Positions 3,715 to 11,404 of a stretch of DNA of 42,072 nt are shown here, piece by piece (position 1 is the first letter of the stretch; every line of letters begins with the position of its first letter). Position numbers and translations under genes: made by a program. Source of the DNA: Eggerthellales bacterium (GTDB lineage: Bacteria; Actinomycetota; Coriobacteriia; Coriobacteriales; Eggerthellaceae); NCBI GenBank assembly GCA_029219345.1, contig JAQXTF010000013.1, positions 1-42,072 of the forward strand. Reading direction: 5' to 3'. The notes below the pieces were generated by a model, which saw only the letters and a list, made by a program, of their open reading frames with translations, was not told where the DNA came from and made no database searches.

Positions 3715-3833
3715 GTGACAGAATTGCCCCGGGCGCTTTTGTCATATTGCTGTACGGTTTTTGGCTATCGCAGGGCATCGTCTTCCCCCTTGCACCCGAA
3801 ACGTGACAAAAGCGCCCGGGGCAATTCTGTCAC
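3715..3833. repeat. 119-bp element bounded by a perfect 30-bp inverted repeat
   Basis: Arms 3715-3744 and 3804-3833 are exact reverse complements (30/30), separated by about 59 bp. Each arm is itself partly palindromic, beginning GTGACA and ending with its complement TGTCA around a CCCGGG core. The element ends 1 bp before the amidohydrolase stop codon. As RNA on either strand it would form a very stable hairpin. It could be a non-autonomous dispersed repeat, or a terminator-like end for the amidohydrolase transcript. Confidence 0.85.
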
Positions 3834-3834
3834 A

Positions 3835-4659
3835 TTACAGGAAGAAGCGACTCACCAACGCCTGTGCGCCCGTCTCAAGCACCTGGGAAGAAAGACCCAG
3901 CAGCTGCTCTTCGGTCTGAGAACCCGTTACATGGGGCACACCGCCCGATCCTGCATCGGAGCCTACCGCTATCAGGCCGCCAGCTACAGCAACCGCCGCA
4001 ACATTGGCCGCATGTTCGCGAAAAATGCGCGCATCAGCACCTGCCGCCGCATGCACCGGAGCCAAGGTGGGCACCCACACCGTGTGACTGGCCGCAAGGC
4101 ATTTACAGGTTGCAGCGTCCATAAGCAGGCCATGCTCCACACTATCCACGCCCGCATTGAGAGCATCCCTCACCAACGAAGCGGTGTTCACATGAGCCAT
4201 GACAGGAAGCTCCTGGCCATGGGCGTATTCCACCAGCTGAGCCACCACTTCTGCAGGGAGGCCCGGGCTGGAGATTTCCCCATACGCATCAAAATTGGCA
4301 ATGCCCGAAAGCATAAGCTTCACAAAGGTAGCACCCTGCTGTTGCGCCTGGTCAACCAGGAATTTGTACTCCTCCAAGCCTTCAAAGGGCTTGCCCAAAA
4401 AGGCGCCATACTGGCCGCGAGGATACAGCGGAAAAGCCGGCGATGCGAAAGCGATGCCATATGCGGGCGCCAGTTGGGCCGCGCGGCTCGCCACACCCCA
4501 CTTGTCACCGCCGTCGCGCAAATGGGTGTATCCCGTCGCAGCGTAAGCCTGCAGCGTGGCGTGAATCCAGGCCTCATCAGGGCCTTCCCCATGACGTACC
4601 TTCGCCTGGCGCCAATCGGCACCATCTAGGGCAATATGAATGTGGGCATCAATCTTCAT
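3835..4659 (-). CDS. metal-dependent amidohydrolase
   Basis: 274 aa TIM-barrel hydrolase of the amidohydrolase superfamily. The N-terminal D-A-H-I-H metal motif is at residues 4-8. VKLML follows at about residue 118, where the family's bridging lysine sits, then PVMAHVN and SVEHGLLMD histidines, and VGSDAGSGG with the late metal-binding Asp. This pattern suits a cyclic amide, imidazolone or dipeptide-type hydrolase; the substrate is not identifiable. The start at 4659 was chosen because it opens directly with MKIDAHIH. Upstream codons would run into the terminator and repeat at 4676-4740. It lies between efp and asp23 and is likely a separate transcript. Confidence 0.82.
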   Translation of the reverse strand: MKIDAHIHIALDGADWRQAKVRHGEGPDEAWIHATLQAYAATGYTHLRDGGDKWGVASRAAQLAPAYGIAFASPAFPLYPRGQYGAFLGKPFEGLEEYKFLVDQAQQQGATFVKLMLSGIANFDAYGEISSPGLPAEVVAQLVEYAHGQELPVMAHVNTASLVRDALNAGVDSVEHGLLMDAATCKCLAASHTVWVPTLAPVHAAAGADARIFREHAANVAAVAVAGGLIAVGSDAGSGGVPHVTGSQTEEQLLGLSSQVLETGAQALVSRFFL

Positions 4660-4675
4660 GAGTCCATTGTACGAA

Positions 4676-4707
4676 AAACCTGCCAAATGATGGGGTAATT
4701 TGGCAGG
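4676..4707. repeat. 32-bp stem-loop repeat, copy 1
   Basis: This 32-bp sequence is identical at 15207-15238. Its core is a perfect 10-bp stem (CCTGCCAAAT and its complement) around a 9-nt loop, GATGGGGTA. On the minus strand it is followed by GTTTTTC, so it may terminate transcription just before the amidohydrolase start. It lies immediately downstream of the efp terminator. Confidence 0.8.
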
Positions 4708-4710
4708 TTT

Positions 4711-4740
4711 AAAAAAACCCGCCCCCATTGGGACGGGTTT
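4711..4740 (-). terminator. rho-independent terminator after efp
   Basis: On the minus strand an 11-bp G+C-rich stem with one mismatch (arms 4730-4740 and 4715-4725) closes a 4-nt loop and runs into seven T residues. It sits about 20 nt downstream of the efp stop and ends the long operon. Confidence 0.85.
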
Positions 4741-4761
4741 CAAACGCATATCAGCGCAACT

Positions 4762-5322
4762 TTAGACGCGCTTTACGAAGCGGCCGTCGCGAGTGTCAAT
4801 CTGCACGGTTTCGCCCTCGGAGATGTACATGGGGATCTGAACAACAGCGCCAGTCTCCAGGGTAGCAGGCTTGGTAGCACCGGTAACGGTGTCGCCCTTG
4901 AAGCCAGGCTCAGTCTCGGTAACAACCAGCTCAACGAACATCTGAGGCTCAACGGAAACCAGCTCGCCATCAGCATACAGGATGGAAGCTTCGTCGTTTT
5001 CCTTCAGCCACTTAGCGCAATCGCCTACCTGAGCTTCGTTCACTTCAAACTGCTCGAAGGTCTCCATGTCCATGAAGTTGTAGGTTTCGCCGTCGTTGTA
5101 CAGGTACTGCAGTTTCTTGGTTTCCAGACGGATAGCGTCAAACTTGGTGCCAGCGTTGAAGGTGTATTCAACCACGCGGCCGGTGCGGATGTCGCGAAGC
5201 TTGGTGCGAACGAAAGCGCCGCCCTTGCCAGGCTTTACGTGCTGGAACTCAACAATGACACAAGCCTTGTTGTTGTACTCGATGCACATACCGTTCTTGA
5301 AATCAGCGGTAGAGATTGCCAT
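4762..5322 (-). CDS. efp: translation elongation factor P
   Basis: 186 aa, the standard length. It binds between the P and E sites of the ribosome and relieves stalling at polyproline stretches. All three beta-barrel domains are present: the KOW-like N-terminal domain with VKPGKGGAFVRTKLRDIRTG at about residues 29-48, the middle domain, and the C-terminal domain with TKPATLETGAVVQIPMYI and DTRDGRFVKRV. The modification-site loop reads KPGKGGAF, with Lys at the usual position. A strong AAGGAGG precedes the ATG. It follows pepP by about 54 nt, a neighbourhood found in both Bacillus and Mycobacterium. Confidence 0.97.
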   Translation of the reverse strand: MAISTADFKNGMCIEYNNKACVIVEFQHVKPGKGGAFVRTKLRDIRTGRVVEYTFNAGTKFDAIRLETKKLQYLYNDGETYNFMDMETFEQFEVNEAQVGDCAKWLKENDEASILYADGELVSVEPQMFVELVVTETEPGFKGDTVTGATKPATLETGAVVQIPMYISEGETVQIDTRDGRFVKRV

Positions 5323-5376: not shown

Positions 5377-6492
5377 CTATATTATAACCATTTCATGGGT
5401 AGATTGTGTGAAGACATGGAAACCCACAGAAGTAATTACGCCAAAATCTTCCAAACGCATGCCAAATTGGCCCTCCAAATAGATGCCGGGCTCCACCGTG
5501 ACCACGTTTCCTTCTTGCAAGGGAGCGTCGTTGCGCGGGGAAAGATTGGGCTGCTCGTGAATGTCCAGTCCCACGCCGTGGCCCAGGCTGTGGCCCATCT
5601 TGCCGTCGAAGCCTCCTGCCGCCAAGATCTCCTCAGCCTTGTTGTGGGCCTGGGCGCCGGTCACGCCAGGCTTCAGCATGCGCTCCACCGTCTCATTGGC
5701 TTCGCGCAGCACCTCATAGGCAGCGCGCATCTCGGGGCTAGGATCGCCCAGGAACACCACGCGGGTCATGTCGGAGCAGTAGCCGTGGGCGCGGGCGCCA
5801 AAGTCAAGCACCACGCACTGACCCGCCTCCAGCACCGTCTCGCCAGGAATGGCATGGGGGCTGGCACCGTTGGCACCAGTGGCAACAATAGAAGAAAAGG
5901 CCAGGCCAGAGGCACCATGACGCAGCATGAAGTCTTCCAACTCAACCTGCACTTGGCGCTCAGTCATGCCGGGACGCATGTATTGGATGATGTGGCTGAA
6001 GGCGGCATCGGTAATGGCCTGGGCGGCTCGCATGCGGGCAATCTCATTGGCGTCCTTCACGCCGCGCAGGTTTACGCCCACGCCCTGGGTATCCACGAAC
6101 ACCACCGTCATACCCTGGTTTTCCGCCGTAAGGGCATCGGCGCGCTCCAACAGCTTCCGATATTCGCCCAGCATCAGGGTTTCCTCCAGGCCAACTGCAA
6201 ATTTCCCCGCTGTGGGCAGGGCCGCCAGGGCGACAGCGCCATGGGTCTTGGGCTCCAGGCTCACCGTGAAAGGCGTGCCAACGGCGGCGCGGTTCACCGC
6301 CACGGCATAGCGGGAGTCGGTGTGAAGAACGGCCTGGTCAGCGGTGACCAAAAGCCCAAAAGCCCCTTCCCCATCAAACACCCCATCAAAGCCGGTGATC
6401 CATTGAATATCCGATTCGTTGCGCATGAAGAAGCCGTCAAGCTCCTGCTGGGCAAGGGCCTGACGAAACAGTTCAAGACGACGATTTTCCAT
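5377..6492 (-). CDS. M24-family Xaa-Pro aminopeptidase / prolidase
   Basis: 371 aa cytoplasmic dinuclear metallopeptidase that removes an N-terminal residue before proline or splits Xaa-Pro dipeptides. An N-terminal creatinase-like domain precedes the pita-bread domain. The metal-binding residues are visible in DFGARAHGYCSDMTRVV, HSLGHGVGLDIHE, VTVEPGIYLEG and MRLEDFG. The ATG at 6492 is chosen because AAGGAG lies 6 nt upstream and the product starts with MENRRLELF. It is downstream of the aroB-like gene and upstream of efp, the position of pepQ in Mycobacterium and yqhT in Bacillus. PepP cannot be separated from PepQ by reading alone. Confidence 0.93.
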   Translation of the reverse strand: MENRRLELFRQALAQQELDGFFMRNESDIQWITGFDGVFDGEGAFGLLVTADQAVLHTDSRYAVAVNRAAVGTPFTVSLEPKTHGAVALAALPTAGKFAVGLEETLMLGEYRKLLERADALTAENQGMTVVFVDTQGVGVNLRGVKDANEIARMRAAQAITDAAFSHIIQYMRPGMTERQVQVELEDFMLRHGASGLAFSSIVATGANGASPHAIPGETVLEAGQCVVLDFGARAHGYCSDMTRVVFLGDPSPEMRAAYEVLREANETVERMLKPGVTGAQAHNKAEEILAAGGFDGKMGHSLGHGVGLDIHEQPNLSPRNDAPLQEGNVVTVEPGIYLEGQFGMRLEDFGVITSVGFHVFTQSTHEMVII

Positions 6493-6530
6493 AGTCATCT
6501 CCTTAAAAACCGAAGCTGGAAGGCTTGAAG

Positions 6531-7577
6531 CTAGAAAGCCTCCAAGCATGAAAGCAGTTCATGGGCGGGCACCAGCACCTGGCGGCACGCACCAATATCC
6601 GTGGGCAGCATAAGGGTTATGACACCGCCGGGAAGGCTAAACGACCTCAGAGCAATCTGAGCATTAGAAACTTTGGTCTGCTGGATGAAGCCCAGCTGAG
6701 TGAGCAAAGCGTCTTGAGCGTCAATAATATCTGAGGAAATCAAGCCCTCGAAATGGGACAACAGTGCCGAGAAGCGCATGCCATCAGCCAGCGAGGCACC
6801 CATTGCGGAGGCAAACTCGCTGCCATAAGCCAGCACGTTCCAGGCCTCTTCCCCCTGCTGCTCGGCGGCTGCGGAAAGGCTGCTGCGGAAGCTCAAAGTG
6901 CGCACCAGAGCTTCACATACCGCCTCTTCATCGCGGTTGCGCAGGGCGCTGGCGTTGTCGGAAAGCCAGAAGAAGAAGTCGTCGGAATCAAGCAAGGCCG
7001 CCTGGGCCACCAGTTCAAAGCCGGCCATCCACTGATCGGCGGATAGACTTGCAAACAAATCAAGGTCAATGCAGGAATACAGCGGGCGAATATCGGCTTT
7101 CACCTGGCCATTTGCACCTTTTACCTCAAGGACTGCCTGATCGCTTACAGCGCAGCTTACCGCTGCCGCCAACGTGGTGGGCGCGTACACGCAGCGCAGG
7201 CCACCGCCAAAGGCCGTGCCCGCGAAACCCGCCAGGTTCAGCAGGGGCGCATCGCCCATGACCACCAGAACGCTTGCGGAATCAAGCCCCAGCTGCGCCA
7301 TAGCAGCCCACAGCTCGCCCACCGTTTCCAGGGCGTTATCAGGGGAAACGCTCACTTTCGCCGGGCGGAATCCCGCCTGGGAAAGAGCCGTTTTCACAGT
7401 GTCTACCGCTTCAGGAGCCGCGGTGTCGTCAGTAAGCAGCAACACGCGGTTTCCCGCAGGGGCATTTGCGCATGCTTGTTGGATGTTGGCACCCATCTGG
7501 GCAAGAACACCTGAGCCAATGCGCACATCATACGACGGCGCCAAAGCGAAGGTGACTACTAGCTTTGCCTTTCGCAT
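6531..7577 (-). CDS. 3-dehydroquinate synthase-like protein lacking catalytic residues
   Basis: 348 aa, the length of AroB, and in the place of aroB directly behind aroK. The fold is traceable: PSYDVRIGSGVL at the start, LLLTDD, VVMGDAPLLNLAGFAGTAFGGGLRCVYAPTTL in the nucleotide-binding half, and LPTDIG near the end. The active site is nearly erased. The GGG loop reads MGD. The Asp-Ser-Ser-x-Gly-Gly-Lys segment after PTTL reads VSCAVSDQAV. The GHT/GHA zinc region reads YGSEFASA, and the HGEAV motif reads DGMRF. Only two histidines remain in the protein, neither in a zinc-ligand position. It overlaps aroK by 19 nt. It is intact, so an inactive or repurposed AroB relative is likelier than a random pseudogene. 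Confidence 0.82.
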   Translation of the reverse strand: MRKAKLVVTFALAPSYDVRIGSGVLAQMGANIQQACANAPAGNRVLLLTDDTAAPEAVDTVKTALSQAGFRPAKVSVSPDNALETVGELWAAMAQLGLDSASVLVVMGDAPLLNLAGFAGTAFGGGLRCVYAPTTLAAAVSCAVSDQAVLEVKGANGQVKADIRPLYSCIDLDLFASLSADQWMAGFELVAQAALLDSDDFFFWLSDNASALRNRDEEAVCEALVRTLSFRSSLSAAAEQQGEEAWNVLAYGSEFASAMGASLADGMRFSALLSHFEGLISSDIIDAQDALLTQLGFIQQTKVSNAQIALRSFSLPGGVITLMLPTDIGACRQVLVPAHELLSCLEAF

Positions 7578-8113
7578 AGAACTCCCTTTTTAATCAGGGC
7601 GCGGCGCACTTCGCGGGCGATGTCAGCCACGCTACGGCCCGCAGTGTCTACCACAATATCGGCTACTTCTTCATACATGGGGGCACGCTCGGCATTCAGG
7701 CGGCGCGCGTTCTCGATATCGCCAAACAGGGGCCTGCTGGCGAAATTAGTGATACGAGCCTTGGCCTCATCTGCGGAAATGCGCAAATACACCACGCAGC
7801 CGTTCCTTAGCAAGCACTGGCGGCTTTCATCGGTGACCACAATACCGCCGCCACAGGAAATAAGCAGGGGGTCGCGACCTGAAAGCTCCATCAGAATTTC
7901 AGTTTCAATGCTGCGGAACAAATCCTCGCCGCCCTTGGCGAAAATATCCGCCACTGTGCACTGCTCGCGACGTTCAATGTAACGGTCCATGTCAATGCTG
8001 GCGGCACCGCAGGTGCGAGCCAAACGGCGGGCCGTGCTGGTTTTACCAGCACCCATGAAGCCCACGAAGAAAACGGACTGGGTCAATTCATATTTCGGCG
8101 GCATGTAAGGCAT
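7559..8113 (-). CDS. aroK: shikimate kinase
   Basis: 184 aa. It phosphorylates shikimate with ATP. The residues needed are present: Walker A GFMGAGKT at 18-25, the DMD of the shikimate-binding DxD at 41-43, the FRSIE arginine, the SCGGG loop, the lid arginine in SRPLFGD, and LNAERAPMYEEVADI. The start overlaps the aroC-like stop in TGATG, so translation is coupled. The contrast with its two degenerate neighbours is the odd feature: the kinase looks active while the enzymes beside it do not. A few N-terminal residues (MPYMPP) could be trimmed by using the ATG at 8104. Confidence 0.92.
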   Translation of the reverse strand: MPYMPPKYELTQSVFFVGFMGAGKTSTARRLARTCGAASIDMDRYIERREQCTVADIFAKGGEDLFRSIETEILMELSGRDPLLISCGGGIVVTDESRQCLLRNGCVVYLRISADEAKARITNFASRPLFGDIENARRLNAERAPMYEEVADIVVDTAGRSVADIAREVRRALIKKGVLCERQS

Positions 8114-9243
8114 CAGCGAGCCGTCCTGTTCAATCGAGCGATATAAGAATCAACCGCAGCGCGAATATCGGTCATATTGGCGCTGCCAAACTGCTCCAAA
8201 TAGGCGTTGGCCAGCACGAATGCAACCTCAGCCTCAGCCGCCACGGCAATACCGGGTACCGTGCACACCGGGCCGGCGGGGTTTGCGGCATAATCAAGCT
8301 GCAAGGTATCCAGATTCACCGTTTCCTTAGGCGCGCCTGCGCTAGCCGGAGGGGCAACGGCAACGGTAACAATAAGCTGCTCACCGGAAGTCAGGCCATC
8401 TTCCAGGCCGCCCGCGTAATTGGAGGCGCGGGTAAAACCTGCCACCGGGCTTACCAGCACGGCGTCATGGCAAGCGGGACCCTTCTCCTGGGCCAAGGCA
8501 AAACCGGCGCCAAATTCAACGCCCACCACACCCGGCAGCGCGAACAATGCCGCTCCAATCTGGGAATTCAGGCGCTTGCGGCGGTCGGCGAAGCTGCCCA
8601 CGCCGGGCAACAGGCCATCAACCACAATCTGGAACGTGCCGCCCAGGGTCTGGCCGGCCCCGCGAGCGGCTTCCAGCTGAGCGACCATGGCCTCCGTAGC
8701 CCGTTGACTGGGACAGCGAACGGCAGAAAATTCAATATCAAGGGCGCAATATTCCTCAAGCTGAGCAAGAATGTCCTGCTCAGAAAGGGTTTCTTCGCCA
8801 ATGCGAGTAACGAAAGAACCCACCTCAACGCCCAGCTCGGCCAGCAGCTCGCGCGCCACCGAAGCAGCCACCACGCAGGCGGCCTCATCGCAGGAGTCAA
8901 GGCGTGCTGCAACCGCGTCCACCGAATCGGCGGCGGTCTTCAGCACTGCGGCCAGATCACCGCGGCCAGGGCGCAGAAGGGCTCCCTGGGCAGGGGCGTT
9001 TTCTTCTGGCTGCGCTTCGCCAAATACCAGAAACGCCACGGGTGCACCCGTGGTGTTGCGGCCGTAAACGCCGCTTTCAATTTCTACGTAGCATACGGGA
9101 TTGGTGGGGTTGCCATAGCCGGAAAGGCAGCGACGCAAATCGCTTTCAGCCTGGTCTTTTGACAGGCGCAAGCCCGCAGGAACGCCCTGGACCAGCGCAA
9201 TGAGCGCCTGGCCTCCCGCATCTCCTGCCGATGTATAGTTCAT
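8113..9243 (-). CDS. chorismate synthase-like protein lacking catalytic residues
   Basis: 376 aa, the length of AroC. Family landmarks remain: a SAGDAGGQAL start, VPAGLRL, SGYG, GAPVAFLVFG, RPGRGDLAAVLK, VRCPSQRATEAMV, GVEFGAGF, NYAGGLEDGLTSGE, VCTVPGIAVAAEAEVAFVLA. Both catalytic histidines are gone: AGESHG has become AGDAGG and RPGHAD has become RPGRGD. The RxDxCAVPA segment now reads GPVCTVPG, losing its Arg and Asp. Only one His remains in the protein. The ATG at 9243 is chosen over an in-frame GTG at 9252 because an AAAGG lies 8 nt before it. It is first of the aroC-aroK-aroB trio. An inactive or neofunctionalised AroC is inferred. Confidence 0.82.
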   Translation of the reverse strand: MNYTSAGDAGGQALIALVQGVPAGLRLSKDQAESDLRRCLSGYGNPTNPVCYVEIESGVYGRNTTGAPVAFLVFGEAQPEENAPAQGALLRPGRGDLAAVLKTAADSVDAVAARLDSCDEAACVVAASVARELLAELGVEVGSFVTRIGEETLSEQDILAQLEEYCALDIEFSAVRCPSQRATEAMVAQLEAARGAGQTLGGTFQIVVDGLLPGVGSFADRRKRLNSQIGAALFALPGVVGVEFGAGFALAQEKGPACHDAVLVSPVAGFTRASNYAGGLEDGLTSGEQLIVTVAVAPPASAGAPKETVNLDTLQLDYAANPAGPVCTVPGIAVAAEAEVAFVLANAYLEQFGSANMTDIRAAVDSYIARLNRTAR

Positions 9244-9322
9244 AGCTTGCACCTTTCATTCGTTGTCCTGCTTATTGTAACCCAGCACGCGGCAGCGGCA
9301 ACAGGGCAAATGCAGGTCAAAG

Positions 9323-9817
9323 TTATTCAGGCTGCAAGGGGCCCATCAGCTTGCGCTCCAGGCGACGCAGCACCACCGTGTGGCGCAGGTCTTTTTGGGC
9401 CAAAGGCTCCACCAAATAGGCCGTGACGCCCAGCACATGCGCGCCGCAGATATCGGTCAGCAGCTGATCGCCAATAGCCAGCGTTGTGCCCAAAGGGCAT
9501 CCCACCTGGCGCTTTGCATGAAAGTAAGCATAGGGTAGCGGCTTCATGGCCTTAGCAACCACCGGAAGATCAAGCTGGCGCCCCAAATCAAAAACATTGT
9601 CATGCCAGTTGTTACTAAACAGGCACACCGTCACACCCGCTCGGGCAGCTTCCTCCAGCCATTCCTGCACGTCATCTGGCACCAGGCCGTCTTCGCGGGA
9701 GCGAATGGTGTTATCCACATCTACCAGCACGTGAGTGAACCCCAAAGCCGCAATATCGCTTTGAACGTCAATATCGGTTATTCGTTTGAAGTAGCGCTCA
9801 GGTTTGAAAAAAGCCAT
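9323..9817 (-). CDS. YqeG-family HAD phosphatase
   Basis: 164 aa. HAD superfamily, subclass IIIA. The nucleophile motif DVDNT is at residues 33-37, the second motif is LFSNN, the lysine lies in AMKPLPYA, and the acidic motif is IGDQLLTDICGA. Family members are phosphatases with phosphatidylglycerophosphate or nucleotide phosphate as proposed substrates; the substrate here is not determined. AAGGAG precedes the ATG. It is 18 nt behind mltG and ahead of the aroC-like gene. Confidence 0.88.
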   Translation of the reverse strand: MAFFKPERYFKRITDIDVQSDIAALGFTHVLVDVDNTIRSREDGLVPDDVQEWLEEAARAGVTVCLFSNNWHDNVFDLGRQLDLPVVAKAMKPLPYAYFHAKRQVGCPLGTTLAIGDQLLTDICGAHVLGVTAYLVEPLAQKDLRHTVVLRRLERKLMGPLQPE

Positions 9818-9835: not shown

Positions 9836-10972
9836 TTAGCCAAATACGTTGGCGTTGTGTTCGTCGTTGGTCTCGGCAAAGTAGTACTTCATTTCGCCGT
9901 TCTCCTCCTTGAAGAAGAAGTAGAAGTAATCGGTTTCCTCAGGAGAGCAAACCGCCTGCAGGGCTGCCAGGCCCGGGCTGCAGATGGGCGTGGGCGGCAG
10001 ACCGTTGTTGGTGTAGGTGCTGTAAGGAGTATCGGCGTGAACCTCTTCGTAGCTGGGGTCATGGCCCACTTCGTAGGCGGTGGTGGCGTCAGACTGCAGC
10101 GCCATGCCAATGCCCAGGCGGTTGTAGAAGACGGAAGCCACCATGGCGCGGGTGCTTGCGGTAGATTCCTTTTCCACAATGGAGGCCAAGTTCACAATGT
10201 CGTACACGCTCATGCCCTTCTCAGTGGGATAAGCGGTATTCAGCGTGGAAAACTCCTTCTTGAACTGGTCCAACAGCATGCGAATGATGCTGTCGGCGGT
10301 GGCGTTGCCATCAACCATGTAGGTCTTGGGGAACAAGAAGCCCTCCAGCGACTTGGTGCCGGCGTCGGCCAGGAAGGGATAATCGGCGGCATACACGCTG
10401 GCATCGGAAGCAGCAGCGGTAAAGGCATCGGCGGTCACCTTGCCTCCTGTTGCCTCTTCAACACGAGCGGCCACCTGGTTGAGCTTGTAGCCCTCGGGAA
10501 TGATGAGCTTGGTGCCCGACATTTGGGAGCCCGCCTGCAGCATCTTGATAATGTCGTCAGCGGAGGTGCCGCCCTGGATGGTGTAGGTACCCGGCTTCAA
10601 AGAGGTATCGGCGCCCAGCGCAGACACACGCTTCGTAAATTCCTTGGTGTCGGAGATCAGATGGGCGTCCTTCAAAGAGCTTGCAATGTGAGAAGCGCCG
10701 GCGCCTTCGGGAACCACGATGGAAGCGGTCTGATCGGCGGGCAGCAAGTCGGCGTCATCGCCGAAAAGGCCACCAAAAAGCTTGGTGGCGCCAAAAACGA
10801 GTGCAACAACAACCACCAGAGCAAGAATGGCGCCGAAAATCGCCGGGGCCTTGCTCTTCTTGGGTTGAATTGCACTGGTGTCATATGAGCGGAACATTTT
10901 GTCGCCTCTGGCATGGGCGACACGAGCGGCGTGGGTGGGACGAGTAGAGTACGTTGAACGCCTGTTGTTCAT
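9836..10972 (-). CDS. mltG: endolytic peptidoglycan transglycosylase MltG
   Basis: 378 aa membrane-anchored enzyme that cleaves nascent glycan strands and is thought to end their polymerisation. A basic cytoplasmic tail of about 42 residues is followed by one transmembrane helix (about 43-66) and an extracytoplasmic YceG domain. LysM-like strands carry ASIVVPEGAGASHIASSLK, followed by GFLFPKTY, the catalytic-glutamate segment VNLASIVEKE, VFYNRLGIGMALQSDATTAY, and NGLPPTPICSPGLAALQAV. It is located between ruvX and yqeG as in other Actinobacteria. Confidence 0.95.
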   Translation of the reverse strand: MNNRRSTYSTRPTHAARVAHARGDKMFRSYDTSAIQPKKSKAPAIFGAILALVVVVALVFGATKLFGGLFGDDADLLPADQTASIVVPEGAGASHIASSLKDAHLISDTKEFTKRVSALGADTSLKPGTYTIQGGTSADDIIKMLQAGSQMSGTKLIIPEGYKLNQVAARVEEATGGKVTADAFTAAASDASVYAADYPFLADAGTKSLEGFLFPKTYMVDGNATADSIIRMLLDQFKKEFSTLNTAYPTEKGMSVYDIVNLASIVEKESTASTRAMVASVFYNRLGIGMALQSDATTAYEVGHDPSYEEVHADTPYSTYTNNGLPPTPICSPGLAALQAVCSPEETDYFYFFFKEENGEMKYYFAETNDEHNANVFG

Positions 10973-10978
10973 GAATGC

Positions 10979-11404
10979 TTATCCTTCCCGGGATGTTTGG
11001 CGGGTGTCTAACCACGCTTGCAAAAAAAGACTGGCAGCTATCATATCTATTTTTCCGCGCATTTCCTTCTCTGACATGCCCTTTTCACGCAAACTCCGTT
11101 TTGCCTGAGAAGAACTGAGGCGCTCATCGGTGAATTTCACGGGCAATCCGCTGTGACGTGACACCTGCGCGGCAAAATCGCGAATGAACTGGGCTTGCGG
11201 GCCTTCCTCCCCCGCCATGGTGTAGGGCAAACCGCACAGCAGCAGCTCGGGCTCCCAGTCTTCCAAAAGGCGGCGGAACGATTTGGCGCCGGTGCGCACC
11301 TCTTCCGAGGGCAGCACGCACACAGGAGACGCCACGCGTTCGGCGGGGTCACACACCGCAACGCCCACGCGCACCGTTCCAATGTCAAGAGCGAGAATTC
11401 TCAT
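10979..11404 (-). CDS. ruvX: YqgF/RuvX-type RNase H-fold nuclease
   Basis: 141 aa. RNase H-fold protein implicated in 16S rRNA 5' maturation and proposed as a Holliday-junction resolvase. Motifs: ALDIGTVRVGVAV at residues 4-16 with the first catalytic Asp, CGLPYTMAGEEGPQA, FTDERLSS, and the final acidic position in GKIDMIAASLFLQAWLD. The ATG directly abuts the stop of the upstream permease gene, so coupling is likely. It is followed by mltG, the usual partner. Confidence 0.92.
   Translation of the reverse strand: MRILALDIGTVRVGVAVCDPAERVASPVCVLPSEEVRTGAKSFRRLLEDWEPELLLCGLPYTMAGEEGPQAQFIRDFAAQVSRHSGLPVKFTDERLSSSQAKRSLREKGMSEKEMRGKIDMIAASLFLQAWLDTRQTSREG

Follow-up and report, generated by a model that had tools for sequence, protein, structure and literature searches.

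The locus described here raises the question of why a bacterium would keep a full-length chorismate synthase gene (aroC) that has lost the residues required for its known chemistry. The gene lies in a window of 42,072 nucleotides, meaning the whole stretch of DNA that was analyzed, from an Eggerthellales bacterium of the family Eggerthellaceae.

The active site of the aroC homologue

The gene and its neighbors are listed in Table 1; the original prediction had not given the strand of aroC. In a Pfam profile search, PF01264 matched the 376-residue product at 210.8 bits (residues 1 to 349 on profile positions 1 to 327), and TIGR00033 gave a score of 214.9, just above its cutoff of 212.2. The match from end to end bears out the intact, full-length frame that had been described. 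At the alignment columns of His10, His110, Arg337, and Asp339 (column numbers follow S. pneumoniae AroC), the protein carries Gly, Arg, Ala, and Pro, whereas all 76 canonical Eggerthellaceae AroC proteins carry His, His, Arg, and Asp. The original prediction had read both catalytic histidines as replaced (AGDAGG and RPGRGD), the Arg and Asp of the RxDxCAVPA segment as lost, and a single His as left in the whole protein; each of these readings proved correct, the remaining His being residue 259. Lys311, Ser132, Arg39, and Arg45 (same numbering) are missing as well.

Table 1. Features of the ancestral aroC-aroK-aroB locus, in window positions
Feature	Position	Strand	Description
ruvX	10979..11404	-	Conserved neighbor
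mltG	9836..10972	-	Endolytic transglycosylase; conserved neighbor
yqeG	9323..9817	-	yqeG-type HAD phosphatase; conserved upstream neighbor
AAAGGTG	9250..9256	-	Shine-Dalgarno-like, 6 bases 5' of the aroC ATG (from sequence)
aroC (dead)	8113..9243	-	Full-length chorismate synthase homologue lacking the active site (AGDAGG, RPGRGD, AGPVC); ATG at 9243, stop at 8115-8113
Codon 10 (Gly)	9214..9216	-	Column of catalytic His10 (from alignment)
Codon 94 (Arg)	8962..8964	-	Column of catalytic His110 (from alignment)
TGATG	8111..8115	-	aroC stop and aroK start, overlapping by one base (from sequence)
aroK	7559..8113	-	Shikimate kinase retaining the P-loop, the GGG motif, and the customary Arg residues; no acceleration
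AAAAGGGAG	7582..7590	-	Shine-Dalgarno-like (strong), 5' of the aroB ATG (from sequence)
aroB (dead)	6531..7577	-	Dead 3-dehydroquinate synthase homologue
pepP	5377..6549	-	M24 Xaa-Pro peptidase; conserved downstream neighbor
efp	4762..5322	-	Elongation factor P, as we take it to be from its sequence; conserved downstream neighbor

The list of ligand- and FMN-binding residues used for AroC follows, in part, HAMAP-type annotation. Of the 15 invariant ligand or catalytic columns, dead AroC, as the protein is referred to here, retains 4, whereas it retains 76 of the 99 remaining invariant columns (Fisher p = 0.00024). A realigned set, which omits a locus on a contig shared with genome G013 (L093) and a near-copy of Slackia piriformis (G125), gave 4/17 versus 77/99, and 4/13 ligand columns (p = 0.0011) after removal of the four residues named in the original prediction. 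The contrast is weaker against polar invariant columns alone, where 19 of 31 are kept (p = 0.057). A divergent AroC with an intact site (G014) retains 73 of 99 nonligand columns and 12 of 15 ligand columns.

Structure prediction, which had been proposed as a check, returned the AroC fold: the AlphaFold model has a pLDDT of 84.3, with best TM-scores of 0.91 to 1QXO and 0.88 to 2O12, and confidence is lowest at residues 41 to 50, 77 to 100, and 301 to 310, near loops where active enzymes carry their ligand residues. Dead AroC resembles chorismate synthase (EC 4.2.3.5; PF01264; 1QXO, 2O12) in fold, in length, and in its orthologous Eggerthellaceae locus, but lacks both catalytic histidines, the base Asp, and most FMN and EPSP residues, and a canonical AroC is encoded elsewhere in the genome. 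With the fold kept and the catalytic residues lost, its status as a pseudoenzyme is well supported. Judged by its residues, the gene is almost certainly not a chorismate synthase able to convert EPSP to chorismate.

The ancestral locus and a second, canonical operon

An AroC match was found in 114 of 119 genomes sampled from the window's family, in which the locus order is ruvX-mltG-yqeG-aroC-aroK-aroB-pepP-efp. In the window, AroK stands between dead AroC and an AroB that has an open frame, a C-terminal deletion, and none of the NAD glycines, Zn ligands (E/H/H), or Lys. Neither the death of the neighboring AroB nor the placement of AroK between the two dead genes was part of the original prediction. 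AroK looks intact, with its P-loop, its GGG motif, and Asp and Arg present at what we take to be the shikimate-binding positions. In trees from which genes below set length limits were left out, the window AroC tip is accelerated (2.73; canonical median, 0.22, and maximum, 0.43), the AroB tip is very long (6.8), and the AroK tip is not accelerated (0.80; canonical median, 0.34, and maximum, 0.91).

The recommended search for a second, canonical aroC found one on another contig of the same genome (C91), where it scores 408 bits within a complete canonical operon, pheA-aroB-aroC-aroE::aroK-aroQ-aroA-tyrA, each gene of which matches its own family; the AroB encoded there scores 161.1 bits, versus 36.7 for dead AroB. 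A complete operon elsewhere in this genome leaves the ancestral aroC and aroB redundant. Contamination as the source of C91 was rejected because its composition matches the window genome: the tetranucleotide correlation is r = 0.972, within the 0.72 to 0.98 seen across 21 other stretches of the genome (the window contig among them), and the loci of five relatives gave 0.65 to 0.83. The C91 AroC differs in type from the one usual in the family, sharing 57% identity with an AroC from G130, which belongs to another family, and 63% with the second AroC copy of G013. An intact ancestral aroC accompanied by a second, foreign-type aroC was observed in both G013 (L043/L044) and G053 (L045/L046); since these assemblies list 5% contamination, the second aroC may belong to another organism.

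Altered AroB proteins were also observed at the ancestral locus of further Eggerthellaceae or Coriobacteriia (L049, L112, L084, L103, L113, and L126), where AroB lacks its catalytic residues and AroC is canonical. The genomes of L049 and L112 contain a second canonical AroB. Two further genomes (L112 and L087) have an AroK without the GGG motif.

Slackia and the wider order

Among 80 relatives from named genomes, 79 were long enough to score in a site survey that omits a partial sequence (L111): the catalytic His, His, Arg, and Asp are present in 73 and not in 6, all six of the latter coming from Slackia or from MAG SUG1432, which is assigned to Slackia. Low-scoring AroC proteins (133 to 252 bits) occur together with a canonical AroC in 11 of 12 Slackia genomes, and the twelfth (84% complete) has canonical AroC alone; a single 1.8-Mb contig carries the two in Slackia piriformis. 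The low-scoring genes are orthologous to the gene at the window locus, their frames are open in 11 genomes, and AroK adjoins them at 11 of 11 loci with gaps of -1 to 5 bases. From this Slackia locus aroB is gone, and the canonical operons of the genus have a gene order unlike that of C91. Placing the window and Slackia dead AroC together in a single clade improves on the unconstrained quick tree by 6.5 log units (p-AU, 0.716). Because of long branches, the AroC tree is unreliable for placing the window protein. A single shared origin may hold but was not adopted, as the canonical operons differ in order and their AroC proteins are only 42 to 46% identical.

Ten distinct Slackia dead AroC proteins were compared. 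His110 is lost in all 10 and His10 in 8; one row (L129) had seemed to keep His110, but realignment with more rows gives Cys. Only two columns are newly conserved, both Val, and no newly conserved polar residue was found in the alignment of these 10 proteins. Pairwise agreement is 0.37 in ligand columns versus 0.62 in other formerly invariant columns. The variable pocket, without a newly conserved polar residue, suggests that binding was lost and not that a new active site arose.

Selection was gauged by NG86 dN/dS values only, measured for dead AroC on Slackia orthologues, the window's genus being represented by one genome. Two close Slackia pairs gave 0.148 (bootstrap, 0.109 to 0.207) and 0.197 (0.128 to 0.287) for dead AroC and 0.040 and 0.103 for AroK; mltG, yqeG, and pepP gave 0.062 to 0.163 in close Slackia pairs, and six canonical AroC pairs gave 0.021 to 0.170. 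Slackia dead AroC is constrained, though less than its neighbors, every measured one of which has a lower value in both close pairs. Values of 0.15 to 0.20 with open frames argue that the protein is selected, though not for chorismate synthesis. The 11 open frames and the upper limits of 0.207 and 0.287 show, for Slackia, neither the frequent frameshifts nor the relaxed selection that had been named as grounds against the original prediction. Together with the canonical aroC elsewhere, the two Slackia values uphold the claim that the gene has been kept without its known chemistry.

For the window copy, which has no close relative, selection is shown only indirectly: nonligand columns are kept, Shine-Dalgarno-like sites precede both dead genes, and no stop has appeared, whereas, when point mutations were introduced at random into two canonical aroC genes, 389 of the 400 runs for either gene reached a stop before 100 amino acid changes had accumulated. 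In Slackia, dead AroC is likely to be a pseudoenzyme under selection and not a relic; the same status is fairly probable for the window copy.

Two AroC proteins were found only in the window's genome and S. piriformis among 90 genomes from the order; three others have two partial pieces. Families f4 and f10 have AroC of the other type alone, and in all six of their genomes examined the ancestral locus reads mltG-yqeG-aroK-aroB-pepP, with a GGG-containing AroK and an AroB that lacks the NAD, Zn, and Lys residues. In the f4 genomes, this aroB lies 125 to 170 bases from aroK, yet is kept. In one f10 genus, which probably belongs to the Coriobacteriaceae (we infer the name), dead AroB is present in 38 of 39 genomes and adjoins AroK at 30 of 30 loci read (L241, positions 3740-4843, and 29 others, L245-L274); at most one of the three Zn ligands is kept in any of the 30, and dN/dS is 0.04 to 0.20 in eight of nine independent pairs (0.85 in the ninth, which is far more diverged), a sign that this dead AroB is under purifying selection. 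PF01761 detects the ancestral-locus aroB plus a full-strength copy elsewhere in six genomes (the window's, G001, G229, G168, G178, and G186); in G161 and G187, it finds the full-strength aroB alone, the ancestral AroB being too diverged for that profile. A kept AroK with a dead AroC or dead AroB beside it is thus a repeated pattern in genomes that have another copy of the enzyme. In G130 (family f3), AroK is kept and neither a dead AroC nor a dead AroB was found; a dead partner is therefore not required by AroK in every genome.

Possible roles of the dead enzymes

The explanation that we prefer overall, with confidence evenly divided for and against, is that the ancestral aroC became a noncatalytic partner of AroK after operon replacement. 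The window gene would be a vertically inherited Eggerthellaceae aroC, located 5' of aroK in the ancestral locus and turned pseudoenzyme, and the aroC-aroK-aroB remnant would have outlasted the replacement. Chorismate would be supplied by the C91 operon. Dead AroC, which keeps the fold of AroC and presumably also the oligomeric state, may serve AroK, the next protein to be translated, as a noncatalytic scaffold, stabilizer, or regulator; AroK itself may keep, or have gained, a job distinct from that of the AroE::AroK fusion encoded in the new operon. AroK is the constant companion of dead AroC, and a structural or regulatory role with AroK is the likeliest reason for its keeping; this partnership is a tentative proposal that attracts slightly more doubt than belief.

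Alternatively, the locus could be a relic in which aroC and aroB have been decaying since the foreign operon arrived, their frames persisting as short-lived genes or through coupling to aroK and pepP. The long tips of both window genes, the one-base aroC-aroK overlap and the short gaps in Slackia, the deletion of aroB in that genus, and the lack of a close relative of the window's genome are all in keeping with decay. We nevertheless consider it rather unlikely, given the Slackia dN/dS values, the 55 to 77 of 99 other invariant columns kept while ligand columns go, and the rate at which point mutation alone introduces stops (389/400 runs by 100 changes). Coupling would guard the frame and not the amino acids, and as the whole cause it was rejected because the f4 aroB is kept at a distance from aroK where coupling is unlikely.

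A new enzyme with a different active site would also be expected to show the purifying selection seen in Slackia and to keep the fold of AroC, but this reading is improbable in view of the two newly conserved Val columns, the pocket columns, which are more variable than the other columns that were once invariant, and the low pLDDT at the active-site loops of the window model. The score just over the TIGR00033 cutoff could be taken to mean that dead AroC still makes chorismate via substitute residues. That reading is highly improbable with H10, H110, R337, D339, K311, S132, R39, and R45 all gone and a canonical copy in the genome; in N. crassa, replacement of Asp367 alone by Ala or Asn is described, in the available portion of PMC3509576, as lowering activity 300- to 600-fold. 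Least credible of all is an artifact, whether an assembly error or a contaminating C91 operon: the genome is a draft of 142 contigs with 3% contamination, but the composition of C91 matches and both S. piriformis copies share one contig.

In the open-licence papers searched, no reports were found of chorismate synthase pseudoenzymes or of dead AroC or AroB in Slackia or Coriobacteria, and no precedent for a chorismate synthase taking another job; precedents exist for shikimate kinases. According to the available portions of PMC12203367 and PMC2593004, plant shikimate kinase-like 1 (SKL1) has lost its activity and taken another role beside an active copy. Like dead AroC, it is an inactive shikimate pathway homologue kept beside an active one; it differs in being a gene duplicate with the shikimate kinase fold and a chloroplast role, whereas dead AroC stands in an ancestral bacterial locus. 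The C-terminal domain of BzdR, a shikimate kinase domain without kinase activity, serves as a benzoyl-CoA sensor (available portion of PMC3602430) and, unlike dead AroC, is fused into a transcription regulator. E. coli AroK is credited with a second activity, in mecillinam sensitivity (as cited in PMC2593004), and the available portion of that paper describes no dead AroC or AroB partner.

Dead enzymes kept after operon replacement offer a natural experiment on other roles of metabolic enzymes, and their presence in a gut-type bacterium and in relatives with the same pattern suggests that they are kept for a nonchemical job. If AroK needs its dead partners, such dependence would count as direct evidence that shikimate pathway enzymes have a second role, a structural one. 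The dead genes still receive the labels aroC and aroB from family profiles, so that dead copies may be taken for working steps in metabolic models of gut Coriobacteria.

A bolder extension, which we regard as unlikely, is that the Coriobacteriales aroC-aroK-aroB locus has given rise to a new system, in which an AroK-family kinase would form a complex with dead enzymes (AroC in Slackia, AroB in the two sister families, and AroC together with AroB in the window genome) and the Slackia kinase, with a remodeled pocket, would phosphorylate a substrate other than shikimate. In Slackia AroK, the GGG of the shikimate pocket reads GEG in 9 of 11 proteins and SEG in 2 of 11, which makes these proteins (L035, positions 4470-4994, and 10 other loci) candidate kinases for another substrate. 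Assignment of Slackia AroK to the homoserine-type kinases was rejected: for four Slackia AroK proteins, the model of that type scores 71.7 to 87.7 bits (cutoff, 197), below the shikimate kinase models. In one Slackia genome (L178, G121), AroK carries a basic C-terminal tail of ~110 residues.
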